From Mugil cephalus (lineage: Eukaryota > Chordata > Actinopteri > Mugiliformes > Mugilidae): a stretch of DNA of 64,000 bases. Positions 30,801 to 64,000 of this stretch are shown here, piece after piece. The number at the start of each line of letters is the position of its first letter. Positions within the stretch are counted from its first letter, which is position 1. The notes beneath the pieces are model-generated. The model saw only the letters and a program-made list of their open reading frames with translations. It made no database searches and was not told the origin of the DNA. Position numbers and translations under genes: made by a program. The stretch is from positions 5,815,501 through 5,879,500 of the forward strand of contig NC_061772.1 in NCBI RefSeq assembly GCF_022458985.1, given 5' to 3'.

Positions 30801-32963
30801 TACACTTGCTTTAGATTCTTTTTTTTTTTTTTCGAACTGTTAAGTTAACTACCTTTGGTTGACAAACATTGTGGCATTGTAATAAACTTCCAGATCAGTC
30901 TGAGGCCAGCACAGTCCTTCATCCTGAATAAGAACCAGGTGCCAAAGCTGCAGCCACAGATGACTATGATGCCTCAGATGGGTTCCCCGATAGGACAGGT
31001 AACCGTTTTTTCAGATTTTAAAACAAATAGTGCTTTTGATGTTGCAGGTCCAATGAAATACTTAATTTTGCTTTCTTTGACTCCACAGCTGGGCCTCAAA
31101 ACCAATCCTCCTCCCATTCAGGAAAAACCTGCCAAGTCCAATAAAAAAGCTCCTCCTACAAAGGAAGAGTTGCGCAAAATGACAGTAAGTTCTTCAAGAT
31201 TCACACTTGACTTTCTTCCTGCATAGTATGTTGTATGTCCGGAATATCAAATCTGATAATCTGTTTTTTTGTTGTTTTCCTCCTCATAAGGAGACTTTAG
31301 TGACTGACTACCTGAATAGCAAAAATATCGACGAGGCATTGAATGCTGCAAAGGAGATGAAGGCTCCCAAGCATTTTTTGTCTGAGATGCTGAATAAGAT
31401 GATGGTCTTTTCACTTGACCGTTCAGATGAAGACAAGGAGCATGCAAGCACCCTAATCCATGCACTCTGCACAGAAGGCCTTGCCTCTGGGGAAAACTTA
31501 ATGCAGGTAAGTGTCCTAACGAAGATAAAAATGTTTGGTGCAGGTCTTGCCATTTTAATGTCAAGTTCCTGTTCATTTCTTAAATGCACATGTCGTTTTA
31601 CCTTATAGGCTTTTCTGAGTGTTCTGGACCAGTGTCCCAAGATTGAGGAAGAAATCCCACTGGTGAAGTCGTACCTGGCACAGTTTGCAGCACGGGCAAT
31701 CATTGCTGACCTGGTCAGCATTTCTGACTTTGCCCATCAGCTGGAGAATGGTGCTCACTTCCCACTGTTCCTGCTCTGCCTGCAGCAGATGGTCAAACTG
31801 AAGGACCGCGATTGGCTGACTGACTTGTTCCAGCAGAGCAAGGTCAACATGCAGAAGATGCTACCTGGTATGTCCAACCCCGTGACCATGAGTTTATACC
31901 TGGTGTATTTTGTATTGAGTTGGTTTTGTTATACTATTAAGGTTTCATTCATTGGCTGTCACTGATGAGTAATTTCTACTCTTGCAGAAATTGACCAGAA
32001 CAAAGACAGGATGCTGGAGATTCTGGAGGGGAAAGGTCTCAGCTTTTTGTTCCCACTCATGAAACTGGAGAAGGAGCTGCTGAAGCAGATCAAAGTAGAT
32101 CCCTCTCCCCAGTCCATCTACAAGTGGATCAAAGACAACATCTCTCCTAAACTCCACACTGACAGGGGCTTTGTCAACATTCTTATAACCAGGTACAACA
32201 AGTTTCCAATTATATTTATTGTTGTTACTAGATATTTTATCCATTACATATGCAATGGGTTAAATGGCACGACTCGAACCATGTCGATCTTGTGTCAGCT
32301 TCTTGCAGTACATCGCTTATGAGATCAACCCTGATGACGACGAAGAGCAGTTGGCAGCACCAAGTAAGGAACAGCTGGATGAGGAGAAGCAGCTGCTGCT
32401 GTCTTTCAAGCCAGTAATGCAAAAGTTCCTACATGATCACATCGACCTGCAAGTCAGTGCACTGTATGCCCTGCAGGTGCACTGCAATACCAAGGCTTTC
32501 CCCAAAGGTGAGTGCTCGCATTGAGTTCAACATGGTAGTTTAATGCTCATATTTCTCAAAGAGAACCTAGATTCTCTTGGTACGGAAGTGTAATTTTTAC
32601 TTCTATTTTAAGGCATGCTCCTGCGCTACTTTGTGAACCTTTATGACATGGAGATAATTGAAGAAGAGGCCTTCCTTTCATGGAAAGAAGATGTCACCCA
32701 AGAGTATCCAGGGAAAGGAAAAGCATTGTTTCAGGTAATTTTATTCATTTTGTTAAAATTGCTTCCACTAACAACCCACATCAGTCCTCATATAGATCAT
32801 CAATCCTTAATAATGTATAGAACTGTAAATGTAAAACTGCTTCAACCTGCAGCTCTTTGGATCATAAATAAATGGAGGTTTTGTGTTTGTGTTGCAGGTG
32901 AACCAGTGGCTGACATGGCTAGAAACTGCAGAGGAAGAAGAGTCTGAGGAAGAAGATTACTAA
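27811..32963 (+). CDS. eif4g2: Eukaryotic translation initiation factor 4 gamma 2 (DAP5/NAT1/p97)
   Basis: Scaffold for cap-independent and alternative translation initiation; it binds eIF4A and eIF3 but lacks the eIF4E-binding region of eIF4G1. Coding exons: 27811-27851, 28006-28062, 28631-28756, 28858-28960, 29074-29205, 29286-29352, 29446-29597, 29701-29811, 29899-30081, 30194-30335, 30421-30584, 30692-30799, 30894-30998, 31089-31184, 31291-31506, 31609-31867, 31988-32192, 32299-32507, 32613-32734, 32898-32963. All junctions are GT-AG and in phase: 2664 nt, 887 residues (human 907). Start is GTG, as in mammalian DAP5; it is followed by ESVVAPGGPSRF. MIF4G domain about residues 69-300 (RKVRGILNKLTPEKFDKLCL), MA3 about 521-650 (KEELRKMTETLVTDYL), W2 about 700-887 with the acidic end EEEESEEEDY. 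Teleosts may hold two copies (a and b); which one this is cannot be decided here. Confidence 0.97.
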
Positions 32964-38258: not shown

Positions 38259-46250
<7,992 letters not shown>

Positions 46251-47362: not shown

Positions 47363-48327
47363 ATGACTGACAGCAATGACGGTAAGTTTTGTAATATGTT
47401 CGAACAAATTCATGTAGTATATTTGCCTCTTCCTATGCTCAAAGTTAATTGCTGTCTTTTGCTGCCCATTAAGTTTGGGAGTCACCCAGCTGTGAAGCAA
47501 GTGATGTGCTTGAGGACAATAAGAACACAAGTGGATTCTCTGAACATGAACTCCTTGATATCATGTATAATGCGTGTAACACCAGCAAGTCAGGTACTCT
47601 AACTTATTGTGTATTATTTTGGCACACCATTCATTTCCGTATACATACATTACAGAAAATATACAGCAGCTAAATGGAACCGACCAATAAACTACAATCA
47701 AATAATAATATGAAATCCTGACTCATTTTCTCCTGCTTCCCTCTCATCTCCAGGGGAGGTGTTGGCCTCCACTATTGTACAGTACCTGCAAACTATGACT
47801 GCTCAGAGCCCAGGGCAGGACAGACTGGCTGCCCTGCGACGGCTGCTTGACCCTGACTGTGAGGACCCACATGTGAGCAGAGAAACTTTTCACTCCATCA
47901 TGAGGGAGTGGATCGCCCAGTGCAGCCAGGACAGGTGAGTGTGAATTGTATAGGAGATATTCATGTCTCATTACAGGTTGTTGTTAAAAATGTGTCCCAC
48001 TTGGACAGCATTAAATGAAGTATCTCAAACTCGGAACTTTATTATTTTGACTTAATTTACATAAAAGATCAGTAGTACATTGTTTACCACTACTCCAAGC
48101 AGAAGTGAGAAGATATCAGCCCCTGAAATAAAGAAATGTAATTTGCTTATAATATCTCTGTTGTTAATTACATACACTGACTAACCACAATGTTAAAACC
48201 ACAGACAGGAGAAGTAAATAACGTTGATCATCTTGTGACAATTCAGTGTTCTGCTGGAACACTCCATGATGTCAGCAGCCTGACACACACACACAGGCAC
48301 GCACATACACACACACGCACGCACCCA

Positions 48328-48359
<32 letters not shown>

Positions 48360-51300
48360 CTTTAGGAACATGAAGAACAGCACAAATTGACTAGATCCCA
48401 AACTGATCAAGTATCTGTGGGCTGATCCACAAAGCCCCCCACTAACAACATTCTGTTACCAGACACCACAGGACACCCTCAGAAGGACCATGTCTATTCT
48501 CTGATGAGTCACAACTGTTTTGGAGGCACAAGGGAGAGCTACACAATATTATCATAATGTTACTCCTGATTTATATTTATTATTAATCCTTTCTTTCAAT
48601 GAACTGTTGTAGTTTACTACAAGTAGCTTACTCACTGACTCCTCCTCTGTTTCAGTAGTGCTGTGGATGAAACTCATGTATCTTCTGCAGTCTTATCCAA
48701 AGAGCCTTTAAACGGTGGGTAGGTCGTCCCTCAGACTTCAAATCAGACTGAAATCTAATCACTGAACCAGATTTTTTTTTTAAATTTCAGATTTGGATTT
48801 ATCATTTTCTCAAGGCAACTCAGCTTCATCAGAAAGCCGCCAGTGTCCCTGGTTAGTTATATCACTGCTTTTATCACTGCCCATGTTTGCTTTCTACAAT
48901 CAGCTTGTCACACTGTCATACTCCACCACAAACTGTTTATTTGGCTTCAGTGATGGAACGGACCTGTGTGGCACTGTGGCTGAACTGAAGCATGCCCAAC
49001 GCAAGCTGAGCGAGCAGAACAGCAGCCTGTTGAGGACGGTGGCTCAGTGTGAAGACATAAACCTACAGCTCACTCTGGAGGTCTCAGAGCTGCGCTCAAA
49101 GCTGGTCAGGTGAAGTATCAACTACTTTCTTTCTTGATAATTAGTTTTTTATTATATGTTACTACACTGCACACTTTAAATGTAAAACTGTAGTCTATAG
49201 TAACGCAAAACACATTTCATGAAAAAAAGGTGCGAGGAAACTAAAAAAACAGCAGATTCAAACCAAAGATCAAAAATCGGCCTACTTGAAATATGCAGAG
49301 CCTGGTCCAGATGACCTACAAGTGCTTGATCATTTCTTCTTTTGCGCCATGATTTACACAATAAATGTGTCACCTGCCTCAATAGTTCCTAAATGCATTA
49401 TCACTCTATCTTTTCTGGTCCTGTGACACTGTCACAATGGCATTTCTATTAGTAAATGCTTAGCTAAAACACAGATGGAAGTCTCTGATTTTGCCACTTT
49501 AGAAATAAGTAGAGTTGAGTTGTGTTGGTGCATGCAGTGCTCAGCGCTCAGCAGTGAGAGTCAGATCCCTGACAGAAGAACTGGAGGAGATGCGTCGAGC
49601 ATTTAAAGAGGCCCAGGAGAGAGCCAGTCGCAGTCAGAGCAGCAGCACCAAACTGGTACATCAAACACTCAGCAGACTCCAAAGAAAACTTCCTTCTAAG
49701 CTTGATTTTTTTTATAGCCATGTTTTACATCTAAATTTTCTTTGACCTTCAGAGCAATGAGGTTGAATGCCTGAAGGTTCATATTAGGAGACTTGAAGAC
49801 AAGGTAATAAAGACCTTAGATGTGAGTCCCAATGAAGCAGATGTTCTTTCCGTGTAATAAATTGTCCCTTGTGTACACACAGAACGACAAACTCATCTTC
49901 GAAAGGACATGCTCTGAAGATAGCCTCAACAAGCTGAGGAAAGTTAACGCTGAGCTCAGGGTAGGAACACATCAGTGAAACCCTTGTGTCTGTCTCTGTG
50001 TTCAGTTTTAGACGGTGAGTTAAACATCTCTATGTTCACAGGCCGAGCTTGAGGAAACCCTGGTCATGTTGTCTCTGAGAGACAGAGAAATCACAAAGGT
50101 CGGTTCGTTGTGGCCATGAAAGGAAAATTTGTCACTTCAGATTTTTATTTTGCATTTTAACTTTCAAATATTCCCTTGTAGAAAGACATTGTCATGGACA
50201 AGATGAAGAGTTCTCATGTGGAGAATCACAAAATGATTGAGGTGTGTTTCCCTTCACTTTATAAAGTTTTTATTGCTTTTATTTGTATTATTTTTCACAT
50301 CTTGTTATACAACGTGAGATCAAGAAAAGTCATTTAGCCGTTTGTTAAATCAGTTGTTACTTGTCACATTGACTCTGTACTCGTGTTGCAGGGTCTGCAG
50401 TCAGAGCTGATGAGGTTACAGGAACATTCACACCAAGTACTTTTGAGGTATTTTGAATTAATGAGACTTAAACAAATTGAACTGACTGCACATTCTTATT
50501 TCTCAGTGTACTACTGCAGTAGTCGCTTGTGTGGATTAAACTCCAGAAACGCTGCATCCTACTTTTCCCAGAATGCCCCTCAGGAGAATCCTTTTTAAGA
50601 CTTTTTCTGCAATTAATGTACCCCCCGCTTTTATGTTATGTCCCCCGGTTCTATTTTCTGTTAAAGTGAAAAGAGACAAACTGAAATTCTTGTATAAAGC
50701 CGTTGGAGCTTGACGGAGGGCAGCATCGGCCGGAAAGGGAAGTTGAATATTTTAAAGAAAACGTTTTGGGCTATTTCAAGGACAGAAAAGAACTGTAGGC
50801 TAATGGGTGAAGTAACATCATAGTTTTTTGGTTGACTAGCAGAAATAATTTAAAGTCTTGAGGCTCAGATATTTCTTTTGTATTGTTACAGGTATGAAAG
50901 ACACTGTAACAGTCCTCAGAGCCTCTACGGTCGAGATCCTCCAAACCACCGCTCACTCCAGAGCGAGTTGCAGGATAAGCAGCAGGTAGGATAATCTTTT
51001 TGTCCACTTGTCTAAAATAGTACTTGGTACTATTATATGTTTAATATAGTTCTTGTCTTCTTTGTCTGCAGCAGCATCATAGAGCTCTGGATGACATAAG
51101 TCTCCCATCCCTCCATGCACACACTGATGATATTCAGAGCATCATCCATAGGATCAAGGGTGCAGAAATAGCTCACCTTCTGCACAATAAACATCCTGAA
51201 AGGGTGAGGAAAGAGTTTACACTCAGCGGAGAAGGACATTGATCACAACTAGCGTGTGTTGATTCCTCCTGTGTGTTCTCACGCAGGACTCTGCTCCTGT

Positions 51301-54300
51301 GGATATGCAGGAGAGGCCTTTTCCTCACTTCCAGCAGCAACAGGCAAGCATCAAGCAGCAGCTTGTTAATGTGTATGTGAGTTTTTTACCTACCTTTCTC
51401 CTGTTATGGTAACAGACCGGGTCTAGATCGTGTTAGTCTCTGTTCTGAGAAGCTAAGCTAATAAAAACGGTGTCTGGTACTGATAGTGTATTCATGGGCA
51501 TCTCCATTACACAACCCGCAAGAGTTACTATCTCCTTTGTGTAAGGGTCTACCAGGGATAAGTGCAGTTTTAGTACACCATGGTAGCTACAGACATAACA
51601 GTGTGCGGAGGAGATGTTTATAAAGCGGTGGTGGTTTCAGGCTGCAGGAGCTCGAGCTGCACAATTGTGCGTGGGAGGAGAAAGGGGAGAAGGTGGAGGA
51701 CCGAAAGAGAGCCTGGGAGAAGGAACAAAAGCAAACTGGGAGCCAGACTCAGATCAAGGAGGCCAGGAAGGTGGCAGTGGTAAACTGGTGGAAAACAGTC
51801 CGTGCAGAGGGAGCTAAGGGCTGCACAAAGGAAACCATTTTGACCCAGGAGCTCTCTGAGACTCGGGCAAAGCTCCAACAAGCCGAGCATACCATCACTG
51901 ACATGAGGGAGCAGCTCTGCCACCTGCAAGAATCTCTAAGATCTGCACAGGAGCAGGCTGAGCAAAAACACGCAAGTAGACTTCTGTACATTGATAAGGG
52001 AAGCAACACTGAGCGAAAAGAAGCAGAGAGAGCTGTGGAGAGGGTGGTGAAGGATCAAAGGGATGCAGCAGTGGCCACGGATCCTGTGGAGACCAGAGGG
52101 GGAACAGCCTCTGTGCAGGAACACAGCCAGGTTCAGGAGACCACCGACGGCCTCCTGGTAACTCTCAAAAGGATGGAGGCGATGGTCAACAGCGCCCTGG
52201 AGACCGCCGAGCTGGTGAGAGAGAGCGAGCAGAGGGTGAGCCAGGTGAGAGTGAGGATGGAGAGCATCACTCAGAGGGTGGAGGAGGCGCTGGGCCGAGC
52301 AGCCGACACTGACAAGCAGCTGAACGATCTGGAGGCCAGGATCACAGAGAAAACTCAAACTCAGGTATGAGTTAGAAATAGGTGTGCTTTTAAAATGATT
52401 TATTTAACTAAAATTTGCATATAGCCATATATGGAATTTGAATTAAAGCATTTTATTGTCTAAAACAAAAAAGAAGCTTATGTATGATTGGGTTTCAGGG
52501 ATTTATTTTGTCATGCAGAGAATAATCTACAAACTGATAGCTGAAACTTAAAACAGAAGTATCTGTGTGAACAAAACACAACTGGCAAATCCTTTTAATT
52601 TTAGCATCCAGTAATAAATGTTAATCTTTTTTAAAGAATTTGCATGAAATACTCAATGATACCACATTTAAATGCAATGTAACGCTGACTTACAGCTCTT
52701 CGCCACGGAAGTTTTTTCTGTTTCATTTGTACTCTTTAAGTGCGTGTTCTTATTTCCTTACTCTCATTTGCTGCCGTCACCTACTCTTGGGCTCTGAAGT
52801 TGTAAGACAATCAGCAGGACTACAGATGTGTGAAACCGTCCACGTTATATTTATTTAGAAATCTTTCAAGTGAACCAGTGAACTTTTTGGCAATGTCTTC
52901 AACAAGCTTGAAGAGAGTTTTATTTAACATAAATGATAGTACTTGTACATCCAGTAACTAGTGCTAACCCAGTAGTAAATTTGTTCTCTCTGTCTGTACT
53001 TTCCTCAAGTCTCCAGGTCATGGCGTGCCAGCAGACCCTAGAACAGACACCGCAGGGTTTATAGCCGAGGCTGACGTGAAGCCTGAAGATACAGACGGAA
53101 CAGAGCGTTCTCCTCCCTCTCCTGCAGTACCAGAACTCAGTGAGCCTCCTGAGCTACCCATGAATGGTATCACAAAAATACGACCTCGTGTTGTCGTGGT
53201 TTGGGGCCATGCTGTGAGACACAGATGAATTAAAGCTACTTCCTTTTCTAAGGGTAATCCCTGAGGATGTCTGAAAATAGACTCTGCAGATATTTACATT
53301 GCGCACAACAGCTGGTACAGAGAGGAGGGAGAGAGAACAAGCTCTTAGGGAGTGTACATTATCTGTCTAAAGGGGGCATGGGGGAAATTAAGGAAGATCA
53401 GACTGATATGGGTTTTATATAAATACTCTGAGGGTCAAATAGTTTTAGCTACAAACATTTTTAGCTTTTATGGTTTTATACTTTGTATGTTTAAGGAATG
53501 TTTTTCTGCTGAACTATTTATACCGTGTTCCTAATTTTGTGGTACAGACTGTTTTATATTGACAGTTGTTTTTAAGGGGGTTTATAAAGACACAAGAGAA
53601 ATCACAAACTTACATTACATTACATAACAGCTGGAATTTCACAAATTCAGAGCAATTGAAGTGTTAATGAAATATTATAGTGTACGTTACACAAAGGTAT
53701 TGAAAATGTTTACAACTAAGCTTTCGTTAGAGAGCTCGATACCTGTAGTCTCTCTGATCTTTATTCTCAGCTAAACTATGAAACCTGCATGTACGATGTC
53801 AATCTTCTCCTCCCGCAATGAAAGTTAATGGTTATCAAAATCTTGAATTCCACCATTACGACATTTCTACATCAACTTTGACAGTTCTTGTAATAACAAA
53901 TGTACACTGTCAGTTTCTTCTCCAAAATAAGAACAAAAATATCTTTTTTTAGAACTTCCCTTCTAAAAAAGGTCATAGAAAATATTCCCACACGCTCCTT
54001 CAAGAAAGACTCGCAAAAGCTCAGAGGACCAAGTCTTAAGTTGAATTGTTTATTTGTGATGTTGTGATGTCTGAAGCTTGTTGAGGTTGCTGAGAACCAG
54101 TGGGTGGCCTCGGAGTGGGAAATGATATGTCAAGTTAACATGCAGTAGTCATCGCCATGTCCATGTTTATTTTATAGCTTTCTGTCTAAAGATGATATGG
54201 TCCACTGTGGGCTTGTCTTTACTTAGCAAATGAAGCTACAATCACACATTCAAAATGCTACCATAGAATGAAGACTTTATGATGGATGTTACAGTTGTAA

Positions 54301-57300
54301 AAGTTTAACTGCAGAGTCCAGTTTGTTGTGTGTGTGGTCATGTAATATACATGAATCAGCCACAACATTATGACCACAGATAGGAGAAATAAGTGACATT
54401 GACCATCTTGTGACAACTCATTGTTCTGCTGGGAAACTTTTGAATGTTACTTAGAAATGTAGCACTCACCTAGACCAAACCCCACCCCATAGTAATAACA
54501 CTCCTTGATGGCAGCATCCATCCCCAGCAGGATGCAGCCTGACACAGACACACACACAAAAAGGGACAACGCAAAAAACTTGAAGAACACACAATGACAC
54601 CCATGTCCATTCTCTGATGAGTCTGTTTTGGTAGCACAAGGGAGACCTACACAATATTAGGGAGGTGGTCATAATGTTATGCCTGATTGGTGTGAAGTGA
54701 CTGTTGTGAGGAAAGTTTTGTCTTCCCACATAGTGAATCATACACATGAAAATACTTTTAATCAATAGCAAACAATAACAGCATCAGAAAACAAAGAAAC
54801 TTTACAATGGTCAGGACTTGGACCATGGACACAGTTATACACAAGTAATACTATGTTCACAATAGAGACAAAAGTTAACAAATTGACCAGTTGTGGTCTG
54901 TTACATTGTCAGTCAGTCATCTTTGAAGGGTTGTTCAAGCACTTCTTGATGTCATTCCATTTAAAAATAAACTGATGAGACAATCACATATGACTGACTG
55001 ACATCAGCTCAAGTGTTGGGCATCAGCTTCGTGTCCTAGACCTCCACTGAAAATGACTTGTAGCCCGTTTCCTTTTGAGCTGTAGTGCAAACAAAGCAGA
55101 ATATTCTACAGTCAGGCTTAGGTCACATTTAAGCTAACTGCTAACTTCAGCATGCCATTTAGCTCCAAAAGAAGTGTGGCGCTAACATGCTATTGGATTC
55201 AAGGTTGTGCCACATTTAGCAACATTTACTAATGTCTCCCTACAAAAACACAAATGTCAAACTCATGGTGTCACTAGATGAAAAATCAGTGGATCACCAA
55301 AATGAATGCAATTCATCTTCTCAGGCCCATGAATGCATAAAAACACCATGCCAGTACCATAGGAATTTCAGCCTGAACCACAGTGGTGAACAGCCGACCA
55401 ACAAATATCTTTCTTACACGAAGCGCCATGCTTCTGCCGTGCCTAAAATTAGGTTAAAATAAATATCATTGGTTACAATAATACATGTTGAGCCAGAGAC
55501 GTGTGTCTGAGGTGATGTATTTTTTATTTTGAAGGCCATCTATAACTCACTGGAGTATTCCGCCTCCATTAAGGCTTTTTAAAACTATTTTATATTCCTT
55601 TCACTATCGCCCCAGCACCAATAAAACATTGATCTGAGATATTAAATCAACTTAAGGCATTCCACTCTAACATTACAGACAAATAAAACAGGCTTTTAGG
55701 TTTTATGTCCGTTTAAAACATGACAGACAGACTCGGGGATGCACCGAGATCCTCTGAAGACAGATTGTAAATAATTTAGAAAAGCAGAGCATCTTTAATG
55801 CTCTCTCTCTCTCTCTGTCTCTGTCTCTGTCTCTGTGTATGTGTGTGTGGTGGCTGTAAATAGTGCACCCTTTGATGAGGAATTTATAAATGGGACAAAG
55901 GTGGAAATAATAGACTCTTGAGCTGGAATGTGAATGTGAGTGCATTTGCAGTCAGGTTGAAAGCTTCCAAGAAAAGAAAGTACACTTCTTTGGAAAGCTT
56001 TCCCCCTTTTGTTTCTCAGGGATTTGTGTAATCATATAAGAAGTAAACTCTGGCTGTGAAATTCTGTGATAATTCGGTTGTTGTACTAGAGCTGAAATTC
56101 TTGAGTCATTATCAAACAAGCAACTGTGATCGATTGTTTTTTTATTTGACTTGCCTTGAAATGAACATGCTCAGTTCAGATGATGCTTGATAAACTGTGT
56201 CACCTGCTGTTGCTGGTATTTAGCCCTTAACTTGTTACTACGGTATTATAAACCTTTTCCTGAGAGCCCCTAAAGAAGATGGCAAGAGCTTTCAACCAGA
56301 GGATCAAGCACCTCATGTACTTGAGACGGTTGCTGGGTTATTGTTGCCCCTAGTTATGGAGGTGAGGTGGGTGGGACACTTCCTGAAAGAAGTGTAACAG
56401 TAATTCTACCAATCAGATGAATATCACTCTGGCAGCATCAACCCAACAGGACGAAAAAAAACAAAAAAAAAACAAACATGTAATGTAGTTCTCCATTTGT
56501 TTTCTTTTTCTGTCACACTCTCTCTTTCTCAGTTACCCTTTTCTTTTTTTAACTCTCCCATGCCATTTGCATTGCACATGCTTTCCTGTTAAATGCAAAT
56601 CAACTTCTTTCACTGTGTGTCCGTGCTCTGGCTCTAACAGGTGGCAGAGGACGAAGCAGCTGCAGCAAGGTAAGACCGTCTCTGCTGATTTACCACCATA
56701 AAATACAATGTCGTTTGCGCAAGTAGAGCTAGAACTGCATGCTGTGTCTGAATGTCTCTGAATGTGGCACTAATGACAATGTGTGTCTGGTCTGTTTGTG
56801 CAAGAGAAGATTAACGTTAAGCCATGTACCTACTTGAGAGTGTAGAAAAAGCTTATAAAAACATTACATATTAAATAAGATTTGACCAGCGGTTCGACCA
56901 ACACATCCCCAAGTGGCGTTAACTGTCCCAGTATGTAAAATTATCAGATCTCTTTTACTTTTACTGTTTTATCACAGGAGGAAGGAGGAACCTAAACCAA
57001 CACACATGTAGCTCATGCTACATAAGTGAAATGCTATTTAGGCAATGTTCCATCTGTATCAACAACCAGATAAGGAATTTCAGGCTAATACGTGAACATT
57101 AAGTGCCATTTGTCTACAGAATAAATACTGAATGCAGGGATTTCACAGGGCTTAAGTGAATCTTCCTTCTAGTTGAATTAAATAAGAAGAGCATCTGAAA
57201 ATGGCTCCTTTCATCAACAGCTACTGCAGCCTGTGAGACCGTCGGCTCACATTAATTCAAATTGTGACGCTGTAATTCGCCGTAAATATCAGCTGTGTGG

Positions 57301-60300
57301 CTCCAAACAAAGTGACTGTTGTGCTTCCTTTTTTTATATATACAAAACCCATGAGGATCACAGTGCTTAAAACACAAGCTTCTCAGCAGTATAAAGCAGA
57401 TCAAATGACAGCGGATTTTACAAACAATAATGCACTTCAGGAGTTTGGAAGTAGATGTGTGGATTCCTCCTATCCAGCAGAGTAAACACACCACCTAACA
57501 CACAACCTTACTATCAGTCTCTCACAAACAGGCCCTCGCATACAACAACACACAAAGGAGTCTCTTACGCCTCCCTCATTGGAGCAAAAGTTACCCTACA
57601 TAGCACACTTTTCTAGCACTTCTCTCATACTTTTCTACGGTTTTTAGTTAAGGGATGATCAGAAAAGCATGAGAACACACACACAGGCAGACACACACTC
57701 CACAGCAGCCCAAAGAGGCACACAGAGCCCTTCTCCTTAAATGGTCAAAGCTCCCAGGAGTGAAAGAGAGGCTGCTGCTGAAAAAAGACAGGGAACAGAG
57801 GGGACGGGAGAAGGAAGGAGAAGCCCTGAGGATAGAGGAGTTTTCTGAGGAAAAGGCTGAGTGACAGTTGGACTGTGGGAAGACGGCGTAAGCTGCCGGG
57901 ATCGGCGGGAGTGTGTTTGTTTCTCCACAGCACCGTAGCGGTGGATTCAGGTAACGTACACGCTCTCTGCGGGCAGGTTCAGATGATCAGCTGCTCGGAG
58001 CTGTGTGGTCTTAGTGGCTGATGGTTTAGGTTGGAGGCAGACAGGTTCAGCTCAGTCCGTCCTCTGTTAGCGTGTCTGCAGCTGAGTCAAACGTGGATGA
58101 AGGCTTGTGGACAGTTGTCGGTGTGACTTGAAAACTGCTGCGGTGAGTTTGTCTGGTCTAGTTTTTGCCTTAAATGAAGAAACTGTTTCTCATGTTTGCT
58201 TGTCCTTGATGTGCGTTTTAAAACTTTGTGGAGTTAGTCCGCTCCTCCAGCTAACTGTAGGTCTCTGAGTGCATCCATTTCTTTCTCTTTCACACACTTC
58301 CTCTGCCCTGTTATGTCAGATTGTGCCTCTGTGGTAACCACTTCCTCTGCTGGCCCTGTGCTCTGCGCTTCACACAACCAAATTTTAAACAAATCTGGCA
58401 AGAGGGAGTGCGCTTATGTAACAAAGGAGGGGAGGAGGGTGTAGATTCTCTCATCTCCCTCGGCTAGGCCTTGGCTGCAATGAGAGGGTAGTTTTAACTG
58501 ACGGTTTGGATGGACTTTCTCTCCTTGTTGTGTAAAAGCAAGACGAGAGTTGTGTGAAAGAGGCTATCTGCACTCAGCCTTGTTTGTTCTGTCCTGTTCC
58601 CCCACAGGAAATGATCTGAGTGATTCAATTACTCTGCAATATTTATCTCAGTATCACGGTCTGCTGAGGAAACACTCGGCACCATCGAACCTCCTGCGGC
58701 GAAAGTTTGGGCTGAATCGCTTTTAAGTAGCGTGAGCTTCTTCTGTGTTGGTCAGCGCTGTGTCAGTGATCACTTAAGAGCAGGTTTCTGCCTTCAAAAG
58801 ACATTTAAACTCCTTGGGTCGCATTTGGAAGTTTGCTTCTTGGATTAGTAACAAATGCTTCTTATAAAAACTCTAAAAGAGATGATCAGAAAGATGTTCA
58901 TTCGTAAGTGGTTCTTCTTATTCTTAATGTTCATATCTACGGTTATATGTGGCATGCTTTGTGGCAGAATTAAAAAAGGAGTTCCACAAATCTCATGAGA
59001 TTTGGTGGTCAAGAACATCACAGGTGGTTTTTACCAAAGCACGGGCAATTGTCTAGAAATATTCAGATTCATTCACATTTATAAATGCAGTAGATCTTCA
59101 AAGCCGATTTTGATTATATGCTCATAAAAGAATAAAATCTGTCTGCTTGTGCATACTAAGGAAGAGGTGAATTTACTCCAGTGTTCCTGTAGTCAGGAAA
59201 TAATCCTGCAGCTCACTGGGAGACAGTTAAACAACCCATTTCCTCCCCAGTGACTCACAGGCTTTCTGTCCCTATATGTTCCCAAGAACTTGTCACGTTT
59301 GTGATGACACTGAGCAGCGCTCATGTTTTGGCCATGAATTCTCGGAGGATTAGTCCAGCGTACAGCGCATGCCATACCTCCAAAATAACCCGTAATTCAT
59401 CACACGTTTTACTTGCCTACGCACCTTATTCAACAGCTGCTGCTGAGTGTGACTGCAAGTGCGAGCCGTCCCACCTGTGGACATGTGGATATGAAAATCT
59501 TTCTATTTTTGGTCAAATCAAACAGATGCTTTGGAGTAAATTAGCATCCAGCACAGTAACCCCTGACACAGGCTTCTGCAGTCTACTGTGCTCCATCAAA
59601 GGTTCAAAACGGCTCTGTATTTGGATTTGCATAGATTTGATACTAAAAGGGGAGAGCTGTGTGTCCAAACAATGGTTCAAACAAGTTGCGCACGTTATGT
59701 GCCTTTATCGAAACCAGGTCACTGCTGCAACGCTGATGGGAATGTTAAAATGTCTTAGAGCTGAAACTCCTACCAAATAATTAAATTCATTGTTATGTAA
59801 CATAATGCTCTCTACTGCCTTATATGCAGAAGGACTTCTTTTCTTTTTTCTGCATGAGTTTGTTTTCAGTTTGCTTAACTATTACACTGCTCATGTTTTC
59901 TTGTATCTATTGGACGGATTTTATTCAACCACAAAGGAAATTGTTTGGTCACAGTAGCTCAGTTGCACATAAAAAAAAAAACTCTTGAAAAAATAAAAAT
60001 AAAAATAAAAAAAATAAATAAAGAAATGTGATGTACGATAAGCAATAAATTAACAATAAAATACAACAGTATAAGCAAAAGTATGTAAAATTTTCATATG
60101 TTCAAACAACAAGAACAAGAAATAAAAATACACACTATGTACATATAGGTAGGATAAATGATAGGGTGGAATAATATGGGTTGAAGAGAATTCATGCTGT
60201 CATCCATGTAACTATAACAACACTGGATAAAAGAGCAAATCTATTAAACTTTATGAGGAAATAAAGCCTCTCTAAATTCATGGTTGATTGGCTTTAAATG

Positions 60301-63300
60301 AGTAAACATTTGGTGCATGCTGTACAGCAATGATTTGTAACGATGGTCCACACAGCCTCCGCTCATAGGTTCTTTCCAATACGCCAACATGCATCCCTGT
60401 TTGTTTTACGCGGAGCCTCGTTGCCTCAGTCGGCCTGTGAAAGCAAGTTATGCTGCATGTAGCAGAGTTTTATAACAGTGTGTTCCCGTCAGTGTTTGTG
60501 GTCAAAACAGCAAGCGCCTGATGGAAGTCACAGTGTGGGAAGAAAAACACATGGAAGCGTCGGCTCTGCATTCGCAGCCATGAGCAGTGCTTTTATTTGT
60601 TTTGTGGCTGCCCGTGCTGTAAAGCGAATTGCTGATTCTGTGTTTCTTCCAAAGCAAAAGCAGACACATTTCCTATAGATTCCAGTGAAGGAAGAACACA
60701 TAAAAGTACTGTGATGTTTTCTTCTGGCCTCAACACACACCGTGCATCCTTCAGGTCCAGCCAGCGAGCAGAGGCATCTCCTCCTCATGATCGTCAATTT
60801 GTTGTTTTTTCTGTTGCATTATCACAAAAATTATCATTTTACACACACGCGTTTACTCTCATGTGCACTATGCAAACAAATCAAACTCAAACAGGCATTG
60901 CTCCACAGCGCTGCTAGTGGCCGAAAACTCCACACGGTAAATATTCAAGAATTTCATGGCATAGGTGTTGCAAATTACTCTTTAACCAGTCCAAGTAATT
61001 GTTGAACCTGCAAATTTGACCTCAGGTGTAAGAGAGACTTCAACGGCTCTCAGTGATGGCAACATTTCATAGCAATGTTTTCTATATATACTGTAGTTAT
61101 ATCTGACTGAGTTTTTGTCATGTCAGAGTTCAGAAGTCAGATGTTTCGCATATGAGTCAGAACAATTCAGTAAAAGTTTCAAAGCAGAAGCTTCAGTGGC
61201 GATGAGTCAGCTCAGGACTGTTGGGAATATTTGCTAATACCACTGGTGCAAGACACTGAACACCGAAGCTATTTTAGGATTTGTTTATAGTGCGACTGTC
61301 TGGTTTGCTTTTTTAGCTGTGAATTGATGTTCATCTGTAATATGTAATATGTTCAATAACTACTGAGGACGGGCATTACTTTCCCTCATCTCTATGTTTG
61401 TGTTTATGACACTGCAGGTCCAGGAAGAGGAGGAACACTTACGGCAGGAACCTCCGCCTGAAGAAAGTAACCCCAAGGACTCCTGTGACGCCGAGCGCAC
61501 TGCTGAGAGAACTTTTATTTTCCCCCACACCCGCTCTCGTCCCTCATTGCCCCCCGCCATGCCCTCGCTGCCTGAGGAAGAGGAGGACTCTCCCGAGGAG
61601 CTGGACAGCTCCTCCAGCTCCCCCAGTACGGTGAGTGCACATGTTCAAAATACACATTCAGCCTTCAGCAAAATCATCCACGTCCATCATCCATTTGGCT
61701 CTAGATAGAACTCTGTCAGTGTCCCAAAATACGAGGTGCTTTTCTTCCTTCAGCATGTTGATTTTAATTTACCAGACGCAGCCTTTGATGAATCCCTATT
61801 AATTGAGAGCGCACTGTTCTTTTCATCAACCAAACACTCTCCAGTTTCAAGTCCTCCCAAACTGAGGCTTTGCTGTGCGGAAGAGAAGAGAAGTGACTAA
61901 TGCTACTGAATTGAAATACAATATTTGACTTGATATGTGTTTTACTTTTTTTGGCTCTGCACTCGTATATTAGTTATTTCCCACAAAATCTAATTCTGCT
62001 GATTCCTGGACGTTTTATGAGTCTTTGAAGGCCACTTAGCCTGAGTTTCATCATAAATCTCCTGTAGCAGTGCCTAGCGCTGCGGTATTTAATAAGATGC
62101 GTGGAATTTTCAGCAGAGATTACTCTCTGGTTTTTGAAGCCTCTTCTCTCTTGTCTTGTAAAATGTCTGCTTTGAATATCTTCAGACAAATGTATGATTT
62201 TTAGCTTCAGGCCAGCATTGTTCATCTTCCCAGGGTAAAAACGTTTTAACAAGACTTGATATAACTGACTACATTTTTTTTTTACTATATTTTCCATTTT
62301 CCTTTATTGCCATATGTTCTTGCAGATAGTTTTATCCCTGATGGAAGTGTTTCCATTGACTAAACTGCAAATATGGTTTGCATTTACCTCTGCCTCTGTC
62401 TCCTCACGTCAGAACAAAAATCAGAATGTAAGAATTAAAGTAATCTCCTCTGTATAAGAGCAAACAGAAGACAGTATAAAAACACTGAACCCAGTATAAA
62501 AAACAAACAAACAAAAAAACATTTTCTTTGCATAATTGTTTATGCTCCTTATCATTTACAAACTCATCCATTTTAAGCAAGGTAATCAAGGTCTCCCTCT
62601 TCCCATATTTTTCTAGTTCCTCATGAAGAATCTCAAGGCGTTCCCAAACCACATGAGATATCTAATCTCCCCAGTGAATTCTGGGTTGTATGCTGACTCT
62701 CCTTTCAGCTGACCGTTGCATGACTTTTTTGTAATGAAGTCACCCTCACTTCAGATAAGTCACCATCAGCTGATTTGTAGAAATTAATTTTCATGCAGTG
62801 GGAGTTCCAATGAAAACGTTCCACAGTGTTCCCGACACACGTCTGGGAAAACAGGACTCTCAACCTTTTATGTTTTTATTTTTAGTGCTGTGAAGGCAGC
62901 AGGAGACAAACCAAAACTAACTTCTCCACTAGATACCAGGGGAGGTTTCATCAGAACTGAACGTTTATGAACAATCATGAACAACCCCAAAAACAGAGGC
63001 ACAAGAGATAAAGAATAAATATAATCCGAAAGGAGTCAGATTCAGTATTTGAGTCACTAAACATCCCACAGGCAATAAAGAGTTAAACCTTTAAACTGTG
63101 AGAACATTGTCTTCCCGTGCTGTCGTTGATAAACTGACAGAATGGATAAGATCTTCTCTGTGATGAACCTGTGTAATCTAATCTTCAGGGCATACTGTAT
63201 GCCATCACTATATGAGTATCCATCTTTATCACTGCATATCTGAGGCCTCTCTGCAGCCTGTCTGCTGTGTTGCCATTAGAGGGTTTCTTTTATTAGGAGT

Positions 63301-64000
63301 CTAATGCAAAGAAAAGCTTTTAGTTTTTTACTATTGTTTGATGCCTGCCTGAATTTTATTTGCATGCTTACTTGGTTAAGAATTTTATGCTGTAAAACTC
63401 GAAATTGAGTGATGTTTACTTTACATCTAGATATAAATATAAAGTGCTTTGTCTTGGGTTGCTAGAGGGAACAAAAATGTAATTGAAGGTCCTCTTCAAA
63501 AACAAAACATTAAAAGTATTACGGTATCTGTAGTGATATTTTGCAGGCTTTTGTGCCAGTCAGGCCTCACTTGGGAAAGACCAAGAATACCTTGCAGTTG
63601 GTAATAAGTATTTGTAGTAATGTTTTTATGTGTCTGTTCCTAAATGATCAATCACAAACAAACCATAAAGTACTGTAACAATGGAGACTCGAGAGGAACC
63701 AGGGAGTCAAAAGGATTCTGTCGTCACTGTCATGTCGCTTCAATTCACAGCTACATTTTGTTATCTCTCTCTCTCAGTCTGCTCCATGTGAAAGCCGAAC
63801 CGTCGTCATGACAGCCCCCACCATCGTCTACCCGCAGCAGGCCACTATTGTCCAGCAAGACGGTCGTCCCCTGGAGCAGGCCAGGTAACATTGGACCATC
63901 TCAGAAATATGTTTTCTCGTCTGTGGCTGTAAACAGAGACATTGTGTCTGACTCATTACCATTTCCTCTCTCAGGCCACACAGTCCCAGAGCTCGTCTGC
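47363..64000 (+). CDS. irag1: irag1/mrvi1-like gene with a KASH5-type N-terminus (3' end beyond window)
   Basis: Exons: 47363-47381, 47474-47593, 47754-47934, 48656-48714, 48791-48851, 48951-49109, 49538-49655, 49753-49803, 49883-49960, 50042-50098, 50182-50241, 50392-50447, 50892-50985, 51072-51203, 51287-51376, 51648-52364, 53010-53166, 56641-56669, 61418-61630, 63778-63884, then 63975 to the edge. All joins keep phase; about 860 residues are visible. Residues 30-106 form an EF-hand-like pair (SEHELLDIMYNACNTSKSGE; LDPDCEDP) very like KASH5. Residues 150-370 are coiled coil. The 717-nt exon gives more coiled coil (RKRAWEKEQKQTG; VRESEQRVSQVRVRMESITQ). Later exons are acidic and Ser/Pro-rich (PEELDSSSSSPST). 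IRAG proteins sit on ER or nuclear membrane through a C-terminal anchor, outside this window. The name rests on synteny with eif4g2 and ctr9. Two adjacent genes remain possible. The start is the first ATG (A at -3); exon 1 is open upstream. Confidence 0.6.
48173..48572. mobile_element. shortened Tc1-like element (intron copy 1)
   Basis: The left end TACACTGACTAACCACAATG and the right part CACAATATTATCATAATGTT then ACTCCTGAT are the two ends of the family seen at 37034. Most of the transposase is missing. The interior keeps family scraps (GTGTTCTGCTGG near 48248; CTGTTTTGGAGGCACAAGGG near 48516). A CA/CACG microsatellite occupies 48282-48360. It lies in the intron between the third and fourth coding exons of the irag1-like gene. 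Confidence 0.7.
48282..48360. repeat. CA/CACG microsatellite
   Basis: CA repeats grade into pure ACGC tandem units. The run sits exactly where the parent transposon has a CTGCCACA stretch, so it probably grew from transposon sequence. Confidence 0.9.
51641..51647 (+). promoter_or_regulatory. irag1: alternative 3' splice site before the large coiled-coil exon
   Basis: Two acceptors seven bases apart are possible: GGTTTCAG ending 51640 and GCTGCAG ending 51647. Only the second joins in phase to the preceding exon (51376), so I used 51648 as the exon start. The first would need a different upstream donor. Confidence 0.45.
54348..54694. mobile_element. shortened Tc1-like element (intron copy 2)
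   Basis: The ends are good inverted repeats: CAGCCACAACATTATGACCA at the left and, reverse complemented, AGGCATAACATTATGACCAC at the right. The interior keeps TTCTGCTGGGAAAC, GATGCAGCCTGACACA and TTGGTAGCACAAGGGAGACC, all parts of the same family as 37034. It is shorter than 350 bp and has no transposase. It lies in the intron between 53166 and 56641. The ORF at 54466-54771 is repeat-derived. Confidence 0.75.
55245..55335. repeat. short dispersed repeat fragment
   Basis: TGTCAAACTCATGGTGTCAC then AAAAATCAGTGGATCACC is a block I recognise from many fish introns. It is a small decayed piece. Confidence 0.4.
55799..55851. repeat. CT/CTGT microsatellite
   Basis: CTCTCT units pass into CTCTGT units and then GTGTGT. 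Intronic. Confidence 0.85.
57690..57951 (+). promoter_or_regulatory. irag1: candidate alternative first exon and promoter of irag1
   Basis: A purine-rich, GC-richer stretch ends in GTAGCGGTGGATTCAG followed by the donor GTAACG (exon end 57951). It sits inside the 4.7-kb intron before the exon at 61418. An ATG here opens only a frame of about 35 codons ending near 57848, so it would be 5' untranslated. Spliced to 61418, the first downstream in-frame ATG with a good context (CCCGCCATGC) is at 61559. IRAG1 is known to have several N-terminal isoforms. Inferred; no transcript evidence. Confidence 0.3.
58000..61417. other. intron of the irag1-like gene, no further features
   Basis: The interval has an A-rich low-complexity run at 59970-60030. 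The 176-codon ORF at 59250-59780 lacks motifs and flanking exon logic. An acceptor-less ATG at 58855 is followed by a GTAAGT donor but its phase does not fit the next exon. Confidence 0.4.
61631..63777. other. intron of the irag1-like gene
   Basis: No exon or repeat family was recognised. Minus-strand ORFs at 61974-62297 and 62404-62652 have no known motif. Confidence 0.4.

Follow-up and report, generated by a model that had tools for sequence, protein, structure and literature searches.

The window considered here is a 64,000-nucleotide stretch of Mugil cephalus contig NC_061772.1. Exons on its plus strand between 47363 and 53166 encode an EF-hand and coiled-coil module of the kind found in KASH5 (CCDC155), and these exons are probably the 5′ half of fish irag1 (mrvi1) rather than a separate gene. 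The sequence-only reading of the window had raised the idea of a single gene with both parts, and three observations bear it out: both halves (EF-hand/coil and MRVI1, at least 150 residues each by blastp) are found in 45 of 184 retrieved proteins, the joined protein P0124 is probably transcript-derived, and P0105, a model from the same species, covers part of the joined form. The 184 proteins came from searches seeded on one or the other half, and counts among them are not population frequencies.

According to PMC9242646, KASH5 was the first transmembrane dynein activating adaptor to be identified. The joined gene, if true, would provide another tail-anchored adaptor, one without a KASH peptide. 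It would also tie dynein recruitment to inositol trisphosphate (IP3) receptor and cyclic guanosine monophosphate (cGMP) signalling in one polypeptide, and would suggest where KASH5 came from. The gene itself is already known: in many fishes NCBI annotates the joined form under the name 'uncharacterized protein mrvi1'. A KASH5-like module heading an IRAG-family protein has likewise been published before, for lrmp: passages of PMC10071310 and PMC8115505 relate KASH5 to Futile cycle (Fue)/LRMP. No description of a KASH5-like module at irag1 was found in the open-licence literature, among the matches listed.

Gene model and neighbourhood

The 17 exons of 47363-53166 are separated by introns that all follow the GT-AG rule (16/16), and they translate into 737 residues with no stops. 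With exons 18-20 added, the model extends from 47363 to 63884 and comprises 853 residues, still free of stops, with 19 of 19 introns of the GT-AG type. This 20-exon model was made by eye and by script; the exon ends were picked by eye to hold the frame, and the open frame taken alone is partly a result of that choice. When the 724-nt exon 16 was shuffled, the stop-free frame was kept in 0 of 2000 trials. Independent support for the exon model comes from Pfam matches and colinear fish proteins. P0105, the NCBI model of Mugil cephalus IRAG1 isoform X1, covers exons 16-17-18-19-20 and matches the window model over 322 residues, from model residue 532 to the end, with no mismatches; its own start lies inside exon 16.

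Coding exon 1 (47363..47381) contains the start codon and encodes MTDSND, where Perca P0002 starts MSDSND. The EF-hand_9 match starts at 47563 in exon 2 (47474..47593) and runs to 47914 in exon 3 (47754..47934), which holds the remainder of the EF-hand pair. Exons 4 (48656..48714) and 5 (48791..48851), read from the translation, form a linker. The KASH_CCD match starts at 48958 in exon 6 (48951..49109), runs through the coiled-coil exons 7 (49538..49655), 8 (49753..49803), 9 (49883..49960), 10 (50042..50098) and 11 (50182..50241), and ends at 50433 in exon 12 (50392..50447). Translation, Pfam matches and fish proteins together define exons 2, 3 and 6 to 12. Exon 13 (50892..50985), placed by translation and alignments, carries an SLxxE Spindly-like motif, SLQSEL, at 50953-50970. 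Exons 14 (51072..51203) and 15 (51287..51372) were drawn from the translation and fish proteins, the donor of the latter being set after Perca P0002 (...QQLVNVLQELEL). The last two exons of the upstream group, based on the translation and P0105, are exon 16 (51641..52364), a second helical region with the isoform X1 start at 51903, and the acidic, proline-rich exon 17 (53010..53166), which can alternatively be read through to a stop at 53226-53228.

It had been claimed from the letters alone that these exons join in phase to acidic exons further on. The join holds, but by way of a 29-nt exon that was then overlooked: exon 17 ends in phase 1 and the acidic exon at 61418 starts in phase 0, so that a direct junction from 53166 to 61418 is out of frame. 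The 29-nt exon 18 (56641..56669), used by P0105, restores the frame into irag1. It is followed by the acidic exon 19 (61418..61630), present in P0104 and P0105, and by exon 20 (63778..63884), present in P0105. Other irag1 exons lie outside the window, and judged by P0105 the MRVI1 domain and the anchor are among the sequences downstream of it. An alternative first exon of IRAG1-only transcripts, to which P0098 and P0111 map, was placed on the plus strand at 57661..57950; its start is arbitrary, and its donor follows 57950.

Sequence matches in the PDB identify CTR9 in a minus-strand open frame at 42964-43413 (E=8.2e-49) and EIF4G2 in a plus-strand open frame at 31189-31605 (E=1.8e-23), in agreement with the earlier statement that ctr9 and eif4g2 adjoin the gene, as in the irag1 locus. 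According to that same statement, mammalian IRAG1 occupies the ctr9/eif4g2 neighbourhood. The intron stretches 48175-48560 and 54353-54660 are alike at their start by eye (ccacaa.gtta..accacag..aggaga) and resemble copies of a single repeat element. At approximately 48290-48360 there is a CA/CG-rich tandem tract.

The KASH5-type module and the anchored IRAG1 half

A profile search matches the N-terminal module to both KASH5 Pfam families above cutoff, as the proposed KASH5-type EF-hand and coiled-coil assignment called for. EF-hand_9 (PF14658) covers residues 37-100 with 48.8 bits (cutoff 37, E=9.6e-13), and KASH_CCD (PF14662) covers residues 150-335 with 137.3 bits (cutoff 43.3, E=7.9e-40). 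The peptides LDPDCEDP and VSRETFHSIMREWIAQCSQ, on which the assignment had leaned, are both present in the translation. As for the uninterrupted coil, the predicted fold consists of the EF-hand pair followed by a single 153-residue helix (residues 149-301 of the relative P0161), with a low-confidence linker between the two. Five percomorph proteins (P0001-P0005) are 71-76% identical to the module across 95-100% of its length. The module by itself contains no likely transmembrane segment.

Excerpts of PMC9242646 report that dynein association of KASH5 is severely impaired by the substitutions L77D, F97D and M101D, and that no calcium binding by KASH5 was seen. At the positions equivalent to L77, F97 and M101, identity holds for Mugil and five further sequences, and for all 30 rows of alignment A4. 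Mugil keeps five of nine KASH5 contact residues; the residues at V64 and L98 differ.

In 74 of the 79 proteins that are long enough, the LLRYD-type anchor that closes the coil is followed within 45 residues by an SLxxE[ILMVF] motif. In a sample alignment the S, L and E are invariant (11/11), two close-by columns reach 10/11 and most other columns are lower. MAFFT aligned the fish SLxxE over SLGLEI, residues 372-377 of an unverified KASH5 sequence. The potential Spindly motif of KASH5 is placed at 371-376 in the accessible text of PMC10071310, and a one-residue shift, which fits seven of the eight residue names given there, makes that motif SLGLEI itself. The second position of the fish motif is mostly Q or H, not hydrophobic as in the Spindly consensus L-Phi-X-E-Phi (PMC7615804, in excerpt), and the fish SLxxE is for this reason only a candidate Spindly motif.

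At the other end of the protein, the MRVI1 domain (PF05781) of P0105 scores 398.1 bits (cutoff 27, E=8.4e-119). Of 78 proteins with complete C-termini, 77, P0105 among them, have paired cGMP-kinase sites, RSMS-x9-RRVS, 13 residues apart, and this spacing equals that of human Ser664/Ser677 in the portion of PMC10298018 consulted. The C-terminal tail consists of a transmembrane helix and 10-13 further residues in all six proteins examined, among them Mugil P0105. A KASH peptide has approximately 30-40 luminal residues (PMC8115505) and a PPPX-type SUN-binding motif (PMC8115505, PMC10298018; both from excerpts); none was found here, and PPP is absent from the short tails of the same six proteins. 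The suggestion that KASH5 and IRAG1 alike end in an anchor is half sustained: there is a membrane anchor at the end of IRAG1, but a KASH-type link is unsupported. Since the tail has no PPP and falls short of the length of a KASH peptide, the long protein would have, as far as its sequence tells, a KASH5-like motor end and an IRAG1 membrane end that is not of the KASH type.

Joined and shorter forms of irag1

With the threshold set at 100 residues, 52 of the 184 proteins contain both halves, and in 71 MRVI1 is joined to the later stretch of the module (residues 341-690). Among the best 120 of 712 proteins, 42 have EF-hand_9, KASH_CCD and MRVI1, six have KASH_CCD and MRVI1, and 72 have MRVI1 without either KASH5 family. 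P0124, of 1581 residues with all three domains, is encoded on a 5,293-base contig of source 'lgn', taken as assembled public reads. The window gene spans 16.5 kb up to exon 20 alone; because a 5.3-kb contig with the whole frame is too short for an unspliced gene, this contig is probably, and most simply, spliced RNA.

Of the sturgeon models, P0171 likewise combines the three domains, with a partial MRVI1 match, and in its relative P0176 the module is joined to the acidic exon, as judged by eye. If the sturgeon models P0170 and P0171 are right, the joined state would date to the teleost-sturgeon split or before it. No joined protein occurs among the 21 ostariophysan/salmonid proteins listed, for which length limits excluded full-length joined proteins. 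The names 'IRAG2-like' (P0161) and 'KASH5-like' (P0157, if it comes from the irag1 locus) stand on shorter N-module proteins and suggest that annotation often splits the joined gene. P0053 (Siniperca), a joined irag1 protein, is named 'ciliary rootlet coiled-coil protein 2', and P0158 (Cyprinus carpio), a partial module, 'golgin subfamily A member 3-like'.

Beside the long product, shorter ones are probably made. The contig-derived P0127 has, as judged by eye, a leader similar to the 57.66-57.95 kb exon and joined to exon 19, and P0104, the second Mugil model (isoform X2), starts inside exon 19 with its start codon at 61559. P0051, P0073, P0092, P0103 and P0133 share the exon 16 start of P0105, an internal methionine at 51903; that NCBI models from six fishes agree on this start points to a third promoter or to a habit common to their annotation. 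If exon 17 is read through, 20 residues are added up to the in-frame stop at 53226-53228, directly after which ATTAAA is found, and a product with the N module only may result. Four annotated proteins (P0001, P0005, P0006 and P0017) stop just past exon 17; the tails of P0006 and P0017 loosely resemble, by eye, the read-through tail. Two promoters, or three, probably serve the locus, which may also have an early poly(A) site.

Several of these features weigh against a single gene, in particular the irag1 first exon near 57.9 kb seen in P0098 and P0111 and the proteins that stop after 53166, which match part of what the sequence-only reading had itself named as contrary evidence. They would suit two adjacent genes, a KASH5-like one that ends near 53.2 kb at a poly(A) site of its own (the exon 17 stop and the ATTAAA immediately 3′ of it) and irag1 beginning near 57.9 kb, the joined models being read-through or prediction artefacts. 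In Plectropomus the locus is divided between an 'IRAG2-like' model (P0161) and an 'IRAG1' model (P0020), whose contigs are of equal length. Over-joined annotation does occur here: a Link-domain gene (PF00193) is fused into models P0062 (Eleginops), P0112 (Channa striata), P0154 (Pampus) and P0170 (Acipenser sinensis), which warns against trusting single models. However, joined forms coexist with the shorter ones: 45 of the 184 retrieved proteins contain both halves, and the contig-derived P0124 is joined end to end. P0105, from the species itself, connects exons 16 and 17 to exons 18-20, a join that the small phase-matched exon 18 serves, and Plectropomus P0020 itself contains the later part of the module together with MRVI1, so the split there falls inside the coil. 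An N module standing alone would, moreover, be a protein with no likely transmembrane segment. Two separate genes therefore appear quite improbable.

Proposed function, origin and known relatives

There is a good chance that the locus is one gene whose long isoform acts as a tail-anchored dynein adaptor, made alongside IRAG1-only isoforms. A promoter upstream of 47.3 kb would produce the long isoform, of approximately 1,500-1,600 residues in relatives, and a second promoter near 57.9 kb would produce ordinary IRAG1. The EF-hand pair would bind the dynein light intermediate chain (LIC), and the long coiled coil with the Spindly-like motif would contact dynactin. Beyond the coil would come the IRAG1 acidic region, the cGMP-kinase sites, the MRVI1 (IP3-receptor-binding) part and the C-terminal tail anchor, which would sit in the endoplasmic reticulum (ER) or the outer nuclear membrane. 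Dynein would then be recruited and activated on the anchored membrane, as by KASH5. As the IRAG1 anchor comes without a SUN-binding KASH peptide, ER or IP3-receptor-bearing membrane would be a likelier cargo than telomeres. The domains, the exon structure, the joined gene models with one joined intron-free contig protein, and the conserved residues are observed, whereas dynein binding, membrane placement and, for Mugil cephalus, promoter use are inferred.

Alternatively, the single gene could carry the N-terminal module as a degenerate scaffold, left over from an ancestral adaptor and without dynein function. The EF-hand loops fall short, by eye, of a full set of acidic ligands, and the changed V64 and L98 positions and the non-canonical Spindly-like motif point the same way; the review PMC10298018, in its available part, describes no such module for mammalian IRAG1 or IRAG2. 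Against this reading, KASH5 itself shows no calcium binding in the excerpts of PMC9242646. The three critical residues are kept throughout alignment A4, SLxxE is conserved amid variable flanks, and the percomorph proteins retain their identity over almost the entire module. A module that has lost its dynein function thus seems unlikely, and the tail-anchored adaptor is the preferred reading.

KASH5, IRAG1 and IRAG2 may plausibly descend from a common ancestor. A wider proposal, for and against which we stand evenly balanced, is that the three are ohnologues of one early-vertebrate anchored dynein adaptor fused to an IP3-receptor regulator. Fish irag1 would still make this protein, and the short form from a second promoter, while mammals would have split it into a motor half (KASH5) and a calcium half (IRAG1/IRAG2); the fish long isoform would be a cGMP-kinase-controlled adaptor on ER/nuclear-envelope membrane. 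Presumably KASH5 lies near BCAT2 and RRAS, IRAG2 near BCAT1 and KRAS, and IRAG1 on the same chromosome arm as RRAS2, which would fit one paralogon. We lean towards an ancestral joined gene over a fusion because the sturgeon models are joined and homology of lrmp to KASH5 is published. Among the matches listed, which came from pre-filtered lists, there are no tetrapod, shark or invertebrate proteins, and neither mammalian KASH5 nor full-length fish IRAG2.

Among the closest known systems is KASH5, the meiotic dynein activating adaptor, with which the fish protein shares EF-hand_9, KASH_CCD, L77/F97/M101 and, as a candidate Spindly motif, an SLxxE after the coil. Human KASH5, in the unverified sequence, is colinear with it over approximately 375 columns (24.8% identity, blastp E=1.5e-19). 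Unlike KASH5, the fish protein runs on into IRAG1, ends in a 10-13-residue tail without PPPX or a KASH peptide, and is encoded at the irag1 locus, beside ctr9 and eif4g2. With IRAG1/MRVI1 it has in common the locus, the MRVI1 domain, the RSMS-x9-RRVS sites and the C-terminal anchor, whereas its long isoform has approximately 740 additional N-terminal residues. The zebrafish Futile cycle/Lrmp protein, termed a putative KASH protein in PMC5371868 (excerpt), resembles it in an N-terminal region published as a KASH5 homologue, and the fue mutation, which falls in EF-hand 1, gives zygotes with defective pronuclear migration (PMC10071310, excerpt). KASH5 was itself discovered through similarity to zebrafish Fue, the LRMP homologue (PMC8115505, excerpt). 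The zebrafish protein is named LRMP, of the IRAG2 type, in contrast to the mullet gene at the irag1 locus. CRACR2A, ninein, ninein-like and Rab45 likewise use EF-hand pairs as their LIC-binding part, according to passages of PMC9242646, but connect them to other cargo ends.
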